Part shown: positions 115 to 19,541 of the stretch, piece by piece
Position numbering within the stretch: the stretch's first letter is position 1
How the letters are laid out: the number at the start of each line of letters is the position of its first letter
Assembly: GCF_000355905.1 (NCBI RefSeq)
Contig: NZ_APLF01000004.1
Span: 1 to 64,000 of the forward strand
Source of the DNA: Psychroflexus gondwanensis ACAM 44
Lineage (GTDB): Bacteria; Bacteroidota; Bacteroidia; Flavobacteriales; Flavobacteriaceae
Length of the DNA stretch: 64,000 nt
Direction: 5' to 3'
The notes under the pieces: generated by a model
Seen by the model: only the letters and a program-made list of their open reading frames with translations
What the model was told of the DNA's origin: nothing
Databases searched by the model: none
Position numbers and translations under genes: made by a program

Positions 115-423
115 CTTAAATTTTTAAAATAAATAACATCAAATTCAATTTATAATATCGTCGAAATAAATTGAATTATACTACGACTTAGCTCAGCACA
201 GGTTTTTTGATGGATTGAACTTAAAAATAATTAGCATAGCCTTCATCCATCTAGCTGTATCATTTAACGCCTACTTCAGTCTGCTGAAAAGCTTTGGGCC
301 ACTCGATAAAAATAAGATGACCTTCCCCACCAGATCCCAAGTGAAGGTGAACTCATGGGTCCTCTGCTTAATTTCTAAAAGCTAAACTACCTTCTAAAAG
401 CAAAATCCGAAGACACCCTACTT
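115..423. other. Intergenic stretch with a GC-richer relic
   Basis: No intact gene is visible. Bases 241-360 are about 45 percent G+C by hand count, clearly above the other intergenic DNA here. On the minus strand one frame reads GSGGEGHLIFIEWPKAFQQT (about 330-271) and is bounded by TGA codons on both sides. The arms ACCTTC and GAAGGT around 320-348 could pair. It looks like a relic of a repeat or of a lost gene rather than a working gene. Confidence 0.4.
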
Positions 424-14825: not shown

Positions 14826-14934
14826 TTAAAACCAATAAAGAACTGAGGTAAAAAACAACTCTTTTCTTCATTAATTTGAAACACTACAAGAAAGAACTAC
14901 TAAGTTTGGGCTTTTTTGCTATTTTTATTTCCAA

Positions 14935-14972
14935 AGTGGAATAAAAAGCATTTTTATTCCACTATTTTTTTA
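14935..14972 (+). terminator. Intrinsic terminator (13-base stem)
   Basis: AGTGGAATAAAAA at 14935-14947 pairs perfectly with TTTTTATTCCACT at 14951-14963 and is followed by a T-rich tail. It lies about 170 bases after the last gene on this strand, so it ends either a long 3' untranslated region or a small transcript. Confidence 0.75.
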
Positions 14973-15144
14973 TACATAAACAGTACCCAAAATTAAAAAA
15001 CCATACTTTAGTTAGAGACGATATAACAGAAAATTGGGTAAGTAAAATGATTGAGTACGCTTGACATACTCACTCTTTACTGATGTTTGCATAACACTAG
15101 GGTTTTAGTGTATCGCTATGTTAGGACGTGACATTCCAAAAAAT

Positions 15145-15178
15145 AAAAAAGCTCAAGAAATAAATCTTGAGCTTTTTT
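15145..15178. terminator. Bidirectional terminator downstream of typA
   Basis: AAAAAAGCTCAAGA at 15145-15158 and TCTTGAGCTTTTTT at 15165-15178 form a perfect 14-base stem with a 6-base loop. The A and T runs work in both directions. It lies 20 bases past the typA stop on the minus strand. Confidence 0.92.
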
Positions 15179-15198
15179 ACTATTTATACTTTTGAAAA

Positions 15199-16971
15199 TT
15201 ATCCTTTAAAGACAATTTTACGCATTCTTAAACTTTTTGGAGTTACTTCTAAGTACTCATCAGTCTTAATATATTCCATATTTTCCTCCAAAGAGAAATC
15301 TACTTTCGGTGCAATTTTCATAGCTTCATCTGTACCAGATTTACGCATATTTGTCAATTGCTTCCCTTTAATTAAGTTTACAGCCATTTCATCAGATTTA
15401 CTGTTTTCGCCAATTACTTGACCAATATAAATCTCTTCATTTACATCAATAAAGAAACGACCTCTATCTTGCAAACGGTTTAATGCATACCCTGTTGCTT
15501 TACCAGCTGCAGAAGAGATGATAGCTCCTTTTACTTCCTCAGTAAAATCTCCTTTATAAAGAGCATATTCACTAAATCTGTGGTTAATAATTGCTGAACC
15601 AGCTGTTGCTGTTAAAATTCTATTTCTTAGACCGATCAAACCTCTAGAAGGAATTGAAAATTCTAAGTGTTGTAAATCTCCTTTAGGTTCCATGATTAAC
15701 ATGTCTCCTTTTCTAAGTGATACTAAATTAATAGCTCTAGAAGCCATTTCTTCAGGAAGATCAATAGACAATGTTTCCATTGGCTCGTGTTTCTTACCGT
15801 CAATCATTTTAATAATGACTTGTGGTCTTCCCACTTGTAATTCGTACCCTTCTCTACGCATTGTTTCAATTAAAACAGACAAGTGTAAAACTCCACGTCC
15901 AAAAACGTTAAATTTATCTTCACTATCAGTGGTTTCAACTTTTAATGCTAAGTTTTTTTCTAATTCTTTGAACAGACGATCACGAATGTGACGCGAAGTA
16001 ACAAATTTTCCTTCTTTACCGAAGAAAGGAGAATTGTTAATTGTAAACAACATACTCATTGTTGGTTGGTCTATTTCTGTTCTTGGCAATGCTTCTGGGT
16101 TTTCTAGATCTGCAATGGTATCACCAATTTCAAATCCATCAATACCCGTAATTGCACAAATATCTCCACAGGGTACTTTTTCCACTTGTATTTTACCCAA
16201 ACCTTCGAATACGTGTAATTCTTTAATTCTTACTTTTTTAGTAACACCATCAGCTTTACATAACGTGTAATCTTTACCCGCTTCTAAATCTCCACGAAAT
16301 ACACGTCCAATAGCAATTCTACCTGTAAAAGAAGAAAAATCTAAAGAAGTAATTTGCATTTGTGGTGTTCCTTCGTTGTATTTGGTTGCTGGAATAGATT
16401 CTAAAACGGCATCTAACAAAGGAATGATGTTATCCGTTTCATTTTTCCAATCTGTACTCATCCAATTATTCTTTGCAGAACCGTAAATAGTTGCAAAATC
16501 TAATTGTTCTTCCGTAGCGTCTAATGCAAACATTAAATCAAAAACTTTTTCGTGAACGATGTCAGGAGTACAGTTTTTTTTGTCTACTTTATTGACAACA
16601 ACAATGGGAGTTAAACCTAAGTCTAAGGCTTTACCTAATACAAAACGAGTTTGTGGCATTGGCCCTTCAAATGCATCTACTAATAATAAAACACCATCAG
16701 CCATTTTTAATACACGCTCTACTTCTCCACCGAAATCGGCGTGACCAGGTGTATCAATAACATTGATTTTTGTTCCTTTATACATTACAGAAACGTTCTT
16801 AGAAAGAATTGTTATTCCTCTTTCACGTTCTAAGTCGTTATTATCTAACAATAAATCTTTACGCTCTTTACGATCGTCTAATATTTTTGCTTGATCTATA
16901 ATCTTGTCTACTAAGGTTGTTTTTCCATGATCGACATGGGCTATAATAGCGATATTTCTAATTTGATGCAT
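15199..16971 (-). CDS. typA: Ribosome-associated GTPase TypA/BipA
   Basis: A 590-residue translational GTPase of the elongation-factor family that binds ribosomes and is needed for growth in cold or stress. The G1 motif is HVDHGKTT near residue 11, the G2/G3 part shows RERGITI and [16 protein letters not shown], and G4 is NKVDKKN. Domain II ([19 protein letters not shown]), domain III and the TypA-specific C-terminal domain ([45 protein letters not shown]-like segment) follow in order and the length is normal. It is monocistronic: a promoter sits just upstream and a strong terminator just downstream. Confidence 0.98.
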
Positions 16972-16992
16972 GCGAATTTCTTAAATTTGGTG

Positions 16993-17025
16993 CAAAAATA
17001 GGTATTTCTAAGCAATTTGTACAAA
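16993..17025 (-). promoter_or_regulatory. Promoter of typA
   Basis: Read on the minus strand, TTTG (17025-17022), 21 bases, then TATTTTTG (17000-16993) fits the Bacteroidota promoter pattern TTTG-N(17-23)-TAnnTTTG. The start codon at 16971 lies 21 bases further down. Confidence 0.7.
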
Positions 17026-17167
17026 TTCTAAGTGTTTATTTTTCATCATTTTAGCTTGACATCTTATTATTTCTAGTTTAATTGCTACTAATACACTAAA
17101 ATGTTGTACTATTTTTAAAATCTAATACTATTTAATGCAATCACTCTTTTACAATTTTCGTAAAATG

Positions 17168-18138
17168 CTATTGAAAACAACCTCCTTTTAAATTTACTAG
17201 CGTGGTTGTAAAGTTGTTTTGAATTGGAATATCAATAGCTCGTGCACTGCGAACTCCAGTCTTACAACACACGACTAATACCTTATCGGTATGAATTTCA
17301 CGCACTCTTAAGAGTAACTCTGCAATAGGGATATGTTGTCCTCCAATATTAAATTCATCTCTTTCCCAATCTTCACGGACCTCTAATAAATTATATTTTT
17401 CTTTATGGATTGAAAGTCCTTCAAAAGAAACTTTTGTATGTCCGTTTTTTTTATCCTAATGAAGAAATATTACACTTATTGAGCCCGGATTTTTATTACC
17501 TCAGCCCTAAAGGGTGCAAAAATTCTAACTTAGTTGAAGATTTTAGAATATCGACACCCTTTAGGGTTGGGGAAAAGCGATATTCGGATTCAATATAAAG
17601 TTTAGGTGATATTACGGATATTCATAGAAACTTCCTTTTTTATTGCTACGCCACAGAAAAAATCATAATCCTGCTCTATAACTAGCACATTATTTCTGAA
17701 ATCCTTTTCGAAATTCAACACTATTTGATGCATTGTTAAAGCATTATATATCAGTAATTTATTGGTTAATACGGTTCCTATCCCACAAATTATTTTGATC
17801 GTTTCATTGGCTTGTAAACTCCCTATAATTCTTGGTAAAATGCCTAAAACGCCTATTTGCGAGCAATTGGGCGCGTCTTCTGGCTTTGGAAGCGACGGAT
17901 ACAAGCAACGGTAGGTGGCGCTATTTTGATAATTGAACACACTTACTTGGCCTTCAAATTTAAAAATAGCACCGTATACGAGTGGTTTTTTAGCAAGCAC
18001 AGCGGCATCATTCGTCAAATAACGCGTTGAAAAATTGTCACTTCCATCCACAATAATGTCATAGCATCGAAATAATAAGAGCGCATTTTCTCGTGTTAAC
18101 TTTTCATTGTACACGTTAAATGCAATGAACGGATTTAA
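17168..18138 (-). pseudogene. Decayed MoeB/ThiF-type adenylyltransferase with C-terminal rhodanese domain
   Basis: Two pieces of one gene remain. At 18138-17602 the frame matches the middle and end of the MoeB/ThiF E1-like domain (LNPFIAFNVYNEKL, DIIVDGSDNFSTRYL, GAIFKFEGQVSVFNY, RCLYPSLPKPEDAPNC, GVLGILPRIIGSLQANETIKI). At 17455-17168, in another frame, lies a rhodanese domain (NLLEVREDWERDEFNIGG, VLVVCCKTGVRSARA) with the Cys-x5-Arg loop. About 150 bases with a palindrome separate them. The N-terminal third with the GxGxxG nucleotide site is missing: homology starts at 18138, overlapping the stop codon of the 18135-19541 gene. Family members activate MoaD or ThiS sulfur carriers. This copy is almost surely not functional. 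Confidence 0.85.
17505..17566. repeat. Palindromic element inside the MoeB/ThiF pseudogene
   Basis: CCCTAAAGGGTG at 17505-17516 and CACCCTTTAGGG at 17555-17566 are perfect inverted copies, with a second inner pair ATTCTAA/TTAGAAT. The unit can fold into one long hairpin. It lies exactly between the ThiF and rhodanese pieces, in about 150 bases with no coding similarity. It resembles REP-type or miniature inverted elements; no second copy was seen in this window. Confidence 0.7.
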
Positions 18139-19541
18139 CGATTTAATAAACTCAGGAGATGATTTTCTAACTCAGGATCGTTTAGGTTCAAGGAATTATC
18201 TGTGATTGTAAAAGATTGATCGACAACATATACTTTATTGAGGTAATTTCTAAAGAAAGAATACTTGCTAAAGGGAGCATCAGTAATAATTTGAAACTCG
18301 GTGTTATACTTAAAATCGAATTGTTTTAAAGCATTTTGCCAAAGAGTTCCGTTTTGAAAATCTAGGTTTATGCTTAGAAATTTAACTTTAGGGTATTTAT
18401 CTCTCAGCTCGTCGATTTTTTTCAAATTGTTTTTTTTGGCTTCTAACGATAAGGCGGACCATGTATACAAAACCACGGGTTGTCCTTGAGCAAGAGATTT
18501 GAAGCTTAGAGTGTCCGAACTGGTGGTTTTAAATCTTGCCTCTTTCAAGCTACTCCCTTTCAGATATTGACTCTGAATAGCTGTTAGTTGATGTAATTCT
18601 TTCTCATCCAATGTAGGGCTATCAAATTTCTGAATGATAGATAAGGTTTCTTCTAGCTGAGCTTTAGTTTGAGAAAAAACGATTTCACGCCGAATCAGTC
18701 GATTAAAAAAGTTGGTTTTTAAGTAGTCATTTACAAATAATTCATGAACCAAATTCAATCGTCGCTTCAAGTTTTTATGATCATTCAAATCGAAGCACTC
18801 TCTGTTGGAAGGGTCGCAAACTTCTATTGAATAATTTTTAAGATAGTTATCCAAAAATCGCATATAACTAAAGTTGGAAACTAAATCAGAATCATTAAAA
18901 TTCACATCTTCTCGGTAGCTAAAATAATCTTTTGGAAATTCTTTAAATTTTGCGGGTATGTACTTTCTTATGAGAAATGCGTAGCGTTCTCGCATATCAT
19001 AATGTTCATAATTGATAGTGCTTAAGGCGATGTTCTTAAAATAAGGGCTAAAATTCGATTTACTCTCCAGAGTGTTATATTTTGCAAATCTTAAGGCTCT
19101 CAAAGAGTCTGTTTTGATGGTAAAGGCGTCTGGAGATATTTTGTAATAGGAAAGAATTAGATCGTTATCCTCTTCATTAAGAAGAAACATATTGATCAAA
19201 AAATTATTTTCTTCTGAAGAATCTCCATCAAAAGTTAAGGATTCGTCGAAGGCCATCGTATTCACTCTTAATACCGAGCTATCTCCAGGCTTTAAATACA
19301 TCGACTGGCTTTCTGGATGGTGCTCAAAAGTGTAAACGGATTCTTTATCTAGAGAAAATCTATAGCCGAAGTTATTGTTAGAATCTAAAGCAATAGTATC
19401 TATAATGTCACCATTATGTTTTAAAGTGACATAATTAGTATTTGGGTTAACAATTCTACCACCAAGATAAGTTTCTTTATCCTCAGTGTGATTTGTACAT
19501 GACAAAAAACCAAATATTAATAATAGGTAAGTATATCTCAT
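18135..19541 (-). CDS. Thioredoxin-fold (TlpA-like) lipoprotein lacking the CxxC motif
   Basis: A 468-residue lipoprotein (lipobox FGFLSC, Cys15). The N-terminal 100 residues look like the DUF4369-type strand domain found before TlpA folds (GGRIVNPNTNYVTLKHNGDIIDTI). A helical middle follows, and from about residue 340 a thioredoxin-like domain (DTLSFKSLAQGQPVVLYTW, KVKFLSINLDFQ, VYVVDQSFTI). Where TlpA has WCxxC this protein reads TWSALSLEA, so it cannot be a dithiol oxidoreductase. The stop overlaps the start of the remaining MoeB homology, yet the ending LENHLLSLLNR looks natural. No gene partner is evident. Role unknown, perhaps binding or scaffolding. Confidence 0.78.
   Translation of the reverse strand: MRYTYLLLIFGFLSCTNHTEDKETYLGGRIVNPNTNYVTLKHNGDIIDTIALDSNNNFGYRFSLDKESVYTFEHHPESQSMYLKPGDSSVLRVNTMAFDESLTFDGDSSEENNFLINMFLLNEEDNDLILSYYKISPDAFTIKTDSLRALRFAKYNTLESKSNFSPYFKNIALSTINYEHYDMRERYAFLIRKYIPAKFKEFPKDYFSYREDVNFNDSDLVSNFSYMRFLDNYLKNYSIEVCDPSNRECFDLNDHKNLKRRLNLVHELFVNDYLKTNFFNRLIRREIVFSQTKAQLEETLSIIQKFDSPTLDEKELHQLTAIQSQYLKGSSLKEARFKTTSSDTLSFKSLAQGQPVVLYTWSALSLEAKKNNLKKIDELRDKYPKVKFLSINLDFQNGTLWQNALKQFDFKYNTEFQIITDAPFSKYSFFRNYLNKVYVVDQSFTITDNSLNLNDPELENHLLSLLNR

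Follow-up and report, generated by a model that had tools for sequence, protein, structure and literature searches.

Closest described systems

Xenologous gene displacement is the replacement of a resident gene by a foreign ortholog, and the locus described here follows this pattern, with the foreign gene standing at the resident's own site and part of the donor flank included. Nothing in it is mechanistically new; it differs in being unusually legible, as the swap of a core translation-factor gene between genera can be read from the scar of a donor neighbour, from the pseudogene of a sister genome, and from both junctions, which are visible. It is a good example of gene displacement, ordinary in kind. 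The gene concerned codes for TypA/BipA, a translational GTPase of a family with a role in ribosome assembly at low temperature, and the protein found here is an ordinary full-length member of which only the origin is foreign. Defects at suboptimal temperature are described for an E. coli bipA deletion (PMC8313970). No report of such a typA swap was found in the titles and abstract openings of the papers listed by literature searches, which does not prove that the case is unpublished. The scar derives from a ThiF/MoeB-rhodanese (MoeZ-like) enzyme of a thiamine operon, in which a ThiF domain precedes a rhodanese domain and whose gene in Polaribacter irgensii follows thiH; the fragment differs from this enzyme in that it lacks the N-terminal ATP-binding part, is split by an element, and lies in a genome in which thiC and thiG were not found. 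The splitting element, in turn, resembles the MITEs in its length of 192 bp, its palindromic structure, its two near-identical extra copies, and its 8-bp target duplication.

In the 64,000-nucleotide stretch of Psychroflexus gondwanensis ACAM 44 analysed here (the window), a Polaribacter-type typA has very probably replaced the native typA, and the adjacent thiF-rhodanese fragment is the hitchhiking edge of the replacement. A probability of about 0.92 is assigned to this reading, a figure that excludes the path by which the segment arrived. The piece of Polaribacter type would span about 14834-18137, with typA as its functional cargo, and would have brought the last two-thirds of thiF together with typA, a composition that follows from the position of thiF-rhodanese upstream of typA in the named Polaribacter. 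The main event at the locus is the replacement of typA, and an enzyme that lies truncated next to a housekeeping gene can be the baggage of a donor and not the sign of a lost pathway.

Polaribacter origin of typA

Besides the typA/bipA gene (15199-16971, minus strand, 590 aa), no full typA was found in the genome; the product of this gene matches the TypA model TIGR01394 over the full length (846.1 bits against a cut-off of 757.3). The protein is 94-96% identical to the TypA of P. irgensii, Polaribacter sp. IC066 and IC073, and 64-68% identical to the TypA of 24 other genomes of the genus. Overall, typA was matched in 26 of the 27 genus genomes (the window's own included), with one miss in G017 and a 99% match in G041, a close relative that is probably Psychroflexus torquis, a species for which extensive gene acquisition has been proposed (PMC8389477, citing Feng et al. 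2014). In a protein tree whose 64 rows comprise the window, G041, the 24 genus genomes, nine Polaribacter and the best 29 of 60 other matching genomes of the family, the TypA proteins of the window and of G041 are sisters (support 99) nested in Polaribacter, within sets supported at 98 (five rows) and at 100 (with one further family genome), and the 24 native TypA proteins of the genus form one group (99). A typA DNA tree of 15 rows agrees, placing the genes of the window and G041 with that of P. irgensii (100/98). An intact native typA was not found elsewhere in the window's genome among matches at E <= 1e-100, the only ones listed by the search, so that a decayed remnant would escape notice. 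The intact frame and a dN/dS of 0.07 between the typA genes of the window's genome and G041 suggest, at the level of sequence, that the foreign TypA performs the work of the native protein.

The dS of typA to the nearest Polaribacter is 0.48-0.86, indicating that the exact donor is unsampled, and the nearest Polaribacter differs by gene, being IC073 for the typA DNA (90%) and IC066 for the thiF DNA (82%). A closer donor in the genus of G043 (six genomes) was considered and rejected, the typA DNA being 78-84% identical, no better than that of the named Polaribacter. The comparison with plasmid DNA gave 32 records, and the five of them listed match in the typA part of the query only. The TypA tree also contains two deep groups within the family, one formed by Polaribacter and six other family genomes (79-91% identical to the window TypA) and the second by the rest of the sampled family genomes, 23 in number, together with the 24 of the genus (64-70%); these groups may reflect older replacements.

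Gene order and structure of the ThiF-rhodanese fragment

A contig scan with the fragment confirmed 82 relatives, and the best 80 of the 82 loci were kept, with the records of the window's own genome perhaps excluded. Among these 80 loci, the top two matches are P. irgensii 23-P (77%) and Polaribacter sp. IC066 (76%), and the nine Polaribacter genes found are 66-77% identical to the fragment at the amino acid level. In P. irgensii, the gene is the last of a thiamine operon of the order thiC-thiE-thiD-thiE-thiG-thiH-thiF(rhodanese), with typA next on that strand; thiC and thiH pass curated cut-offs, and the other genes are presumed to be what their position and resemblance indicate. A same-strand typA within 6 kb downstream of thiF is present in 9/9 named Polaribacter versus 0/71 of the other kept loci, for which the flank was covered up to 8 kb and over less than 6 kb downstream in a few short contigs (e.g. 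L096 and L106); the spacing in the named Polaribacter is at most 460 bp from the matched part in eight cases and 1.9 kb in one. The window has the fragment and then typA in the same orientation, as in the named Polaribacter, and the blastn match to P. irgensii and IC066 extends from 18137-18138 across typA as far as 15145, with the insert as its only break. The thiF-typA order is not universal among the neighbours of Polaribacter, since in g18, a genus related to Polaribacter by its TypA, both genes are matched in five of six genomes and lie apart in all five (on different contigs in four, and about 1 Mb from each other in one).

The 3' part of the ThiF domain occupies 17605-18138 on the minus strand, without stops, in a frame that is open from 18171 to 17605 (189 codons). 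It aligns with positions 81-227 of the 238 of the PF00899 profile (E 2.5e-37), which makes the catalytic/substrate half of ThiF the homologous part, and in comparison with P. irgensii it is devoid of about the first 95 of 351 residues, including the nucleotide-binding GxGGLG loop. The rhodanese-like C-terminal part (about 17434-17168, minus strand) lies in a frame other than that of ThiF and ends at the gene's own stop codon; it is intact, with 23.3 bits for PF00581 where the cut-off is 22.2, and keeps the Cys of VVCCKTGVRS, presumably the rhodanese active site. An earlier note on this DNA had described a ThiF-rhodanese gene cut at its 5' end where the lipoprotein gene ends, deprived of its N-terminal part and nucleotide site, and split by a palindromic insert. 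This description is borne out in all its parts, the homology to Polaribacter DNA starting at 18137-18138, with the stop codon of the lipoprotein-like gene (18135-18137) on the junction.

The insert that separates ThiF from rhodanese is a 192-bp palindromic MITE-like element (17434-17625) located in the linker between the two parts. It is short, non-coding, terminally symmetric, and multicopy, has an inverted repeat as its core, and is flanked by an exact 8-bp target-site duplication, AGAAACTT (left copy 17426-17433, right copy 17626-17633). A genome search in which 40 of 46 candidates were scored found full-length copies on contigs C24 (97%) and C3 (94%) and at least three further copies, weaker and partial; around the two full-length copies, a duplication of about 8 bp, with a single mismatch or slightly offset, is seen by eye on the alignment. 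The element landed in the fragment.

The truncated ThiF or the split rhodanese piece might be a working protein with a new role, as both frames are open, the rhodanese Cys is present, and the ThiF part shows dN/dS values of 0.06, 0.07, and 0.17 in comparisons with three Polaribacter, where two intact pairs give 0.07. However, these low values reflect mostly the time before the transfer, the ATP-binding part is missing, an element of mobile type lies between the halves, and ThiC and ThiG are absent. Moreover, the truncated form, whose conservation in relatives the earlier note had named as evidence against a damaged gene, is not conserved in any other of the 27 genus genomes searched: the fragment protein is matched in two of the 26 others, G017 (53%) and G023 (31%), in both cases in longer frames. 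A new role is accordingly hard to credit.

Thiamine genes of the host

ThiC was not found in the window's genome and is present in one of the 27 genus genomes, that of G041, in a Polaribacter-like copy. The sole ThiG-like match (24.7 bits, partial) was rejected as a nitronate monooxygenase. A second moeB/ThiF gene, for which a search had been suggested, was not found either, the profile search of the 3.3-Mb genome giving no PF00899 match at E <= 0.001 besides the fragment. On contig C13, the genome has a TPP riboswitch that scores 59.7 bits (cut-off 54.3) and is followed by an operon (L277 337-4218) of thiE, thiY-like, thiM, tenA, and thiD, that is, of a TMP synthase, an NMT1/ThiY-like protein, a hydroxyethylthiazole kinase, TenA, and an HMP-P kinase, which, judging from the family names, would constitute a thiamine salvage route. 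Since the ATP-binding N-terminus, thiC, and thiG are absent and a salvage operon is present instead, the thiF pieces appear to be a non-functional scar, and a ThiF without its ATP-binding half would serve nothing in this host.

The native site of typA

The lipoprotein-like gene that borders the fragment (18135-19541, minus strand, 468 aa) is intact and 94% identical over its full length to that of G041; the signal sequence of its product was judged by eye, and no Pfam match was found for it. Its presence in 26 of the 27 genus genomes marks it as native. In 8 of the 23 other genus genomes that have both genes, the native typA lies 131-443 bp after the lipoprotein-like gene, and these are eight of the nine nearest genomes when all but G041 are ranked by identity of the lipoprotein-like gene; G021 has a gap of 5.9 kb, and in the remaining 14 the two genes are far apart or on separate contigs. 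A gap of only 131-443 bp leaves no room for thiF between the lipoprotein-like gene and the native typA, and the foreign typA occupies the chromosomal site held by the native typA in the nearest relatives.

On either side, the native locus of G041 runs colinear with the window (91-92.5%), with breaks at window positions 14834 and 18134. Between these breaks, G041 has a carbonic anhydrase gene, which also adjoins typA in G001 and G016, and a native typA pseudogene (L165 7738-9222), which is interrupted by in-frame stops at several points and lacks about 115 internal codons, adjoining the intact lipoprotein-like gene; neither the carbonic anhydrase gene nor the pseudogene is present at the window's locus. 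The features of a displacement are found together: typA falls inside the donor group in the tree, the resident gene is decayed in G041 and absent among the matches at E <= 1e-100 in the window's genome (a single typA), and the chromosomal site is the same. The nesting in the tree, the 64-68% identity to the native proteins, and the adjacency of lipoprotein-like gene and typA in relatives indicate that the native typA was replaced in place, with two-thirds of thiF hitchhiking.

The same data bear on the origin proposed by the earlier note, in which a deletion in place would have cut a MoeB/ThiF gene belonging to a cofactor cluster of the host itself, and which is now very unlikely. In its favour, the truncation of the frame is genuine, thiC and thiG are missing, as is a complete thiF, a deletion can yield a microhomology join like the one observed, and the PF00899 cut-off is passed in 4 of 24 other genus genomes, so that the ThiF family is not wholly absent from the genus. 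However, the fragment protein is matched in only 3 of the 27 genus genomes (the window's included), eight of the nine nearest relatives have the native typA directly past the lipoprotein-like gene, and thiF and typA are arranged as in the named Polaribacter. The claim of a deletion or rearrangement survives insofar as the junction did remove the N-terminus, and fails for damage to a resident gene, as the adjoining typA is foreign too; a deletion may have made the junction, but one that removed the native typA and foreign DNA. Likewise, the supposed loss of upstream cofactor genes agrees with the thiC, thiE, thiD, thiE, thiG, and thiH found upstream in P. irgensii, and a resident cluster is contradicted by the single, Polaribacter-like ThiC of the genus.

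An assembly chimera or a contamination with Polaribacter is the least credible origin of the foreign segment. The genome is in 62 contigs, which would allow for such an error, but the join lies within a 412-kb contig with native genes on either side, the foreign typA is the sole typA at E <= 1e-100, the insert of the fragment belongs to a family present elsewhere in this genome, and G041, a single-contig genome, holds the same foreign typA together with the native pseudogene.

Junctions

The upstream junction (18134-18138) consists of a 5-bp microhomology, TTAAA, between the 3' end of the native lipoprotein-like gene, as represented by G041, and the foreign thiF, as represented by IC066, and sits on the stop codon of the former. 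The sequence is CGTTAAATCCG in the window, CGTTAAAATC at the native locus of G041, ATTAAATCCG in IC066, and CTAAATCCG in P. irgensii, the microhomology holding with IC066. The upstream join would have been made through these 5 bp. The downstream junction (14834-14886) extends from the point where the colinearity with the native locus of G041 stops to the point where similarity to the flank of the foreign typA of G041 begins, and is filled by an intergenic dispersed motif of about 45 bp (14833-14877) that starts with AAAGAACTGAGGTAAAAAACAACTCTTTTC. Three further copies of this motif lie on contig C5 of the window's genome (loci L212 and L217), and two genomes of the genus g18 have it as well. 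By eye, a hairpin-like sequence, mostly with a T-run, follows the five other copies, and one copy stands directly after a tRNA-like 3' end. The motif is not covered by any Rfam match at the five loci or in the window; it is possibly a small RNA or a 3' element.

Path and timing of the transfer

G041 is a single contig of 4,321,832 bp, and its only full typA is of Polaribacter type and lies near 4.26 Mb. This foreign locus includes a thiC and a typA that are 95% and 96% identical to those of P. irgensii at the amino acid level and a thiF tail of 28 residues, with transposase-like genes (named by eye) on both sides and no other thi operon genes within the 19 kb read. The foreign segment common to the window and G041 covers 14886-17282, with an identity of 97.7% in typA, 86% in the 198-bp upstream intergenic region, and 75% in the thiF tail, and of 90% over the first 59 bases of the downstream flank, then 78% with gaps. 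The contrast between typA, at 97.7%, and the foreign flanks, at 75-90%, makes any single path tentative. With 40 of 188 candidates scored, a search of the window's genome for the site homologous to the foreign locus of G041 found only matches shorter than 400 bp outside the typA segment, which are apparently dispersed repeats.

Three paths fit these observations: an ancestral import of thi-typA beside the native typA, followed by one microhomology deletion here and a relocation in G041; an ancestral import elsewhere, followed by a relocation in the window's lineage; and two imports. The most likely path, held at roughly even odds, is an ancestral import in which the common ancestor of the window's species and G041 would have taken in a Polaribacter thi-typA segment. 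In the window's lineage, a microhomology deletion or relocation would then have kept only the end of thiF and typA at the native site, while in the lineage of G041 the native typA would have decayed in place and the foreign copy would now lie elsewhere with thiC. An ancestral import is slightly favoured by the downstream flank that both genomes have in common and by the placement of their typA copies as sisters.

Two independent imports after the split, from related Polaribacter donors into the window's species and G041, each import bringing typA with its own length of upstream thi DNA, with recombination straight into the native typA site here, are possible, if somewhat doubtful. The locations and the thi remnants differ between the two genomes, and the dS of typA between the window and G041 is 0.091, below all 12 surrounding native genes (0.150-0.472, median about 0.30), which suggests a later transfer. 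However, a control with native pairs weakens the deduction of a transfer after the split from the low dS, as typA is slow at synonymous sites: the typA/abcF dS ratio of 0.31, although below 13 of the 14 native pairs, is still within their range of 0.25-0.72 (14 of 21 pairs were finite, and the seven saturated for abcF were dropped). Against two imports also stand the sister relation of the typA copies (support 99) and the flank 14886-15139, which is common to G041 (78%) and was not found in the Polaribacter loci fetched. Lastly, the ThiF frame (178 codons) has no stop, against a neutral expectation of about 4 for 0.15 changes per site and of 1.2 for 0.045, so that the cut in thiF is probably rather recent. 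Neutral evolution since the split should have left about 4 stops, and their absence speaks for two imports, but the open frame also agrees with a late loss of an intact thiF.

As for the reason of the displacement, the foreign TypA might have been kept as better suited to sea-ice temperatures than the native one, with the thiamine genes discarded as baggage and the displacement occurring perhaps twice independently in this Psychroflexus-like pair, an explanation that we consider unlikely. Its two-route version would involve, perhaps, a swap in place here and an import at a second site with pseudogenisation of the native gene in G041.

Further observations concern the foreign locus of G041 itself, where L200 6345-12377 comprises a Polaribacter-like TPP riboswitch, thiC, the thiF tail, and typA, with repeats in place of the remaining thi operon. 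A second family of dispersed repeats, of about 160-230 bp, is represented there (L200 9800-10030 and 18357-18518) and has more than 10 matches in the window's genome; two partial matches lie at window positions 140-243.
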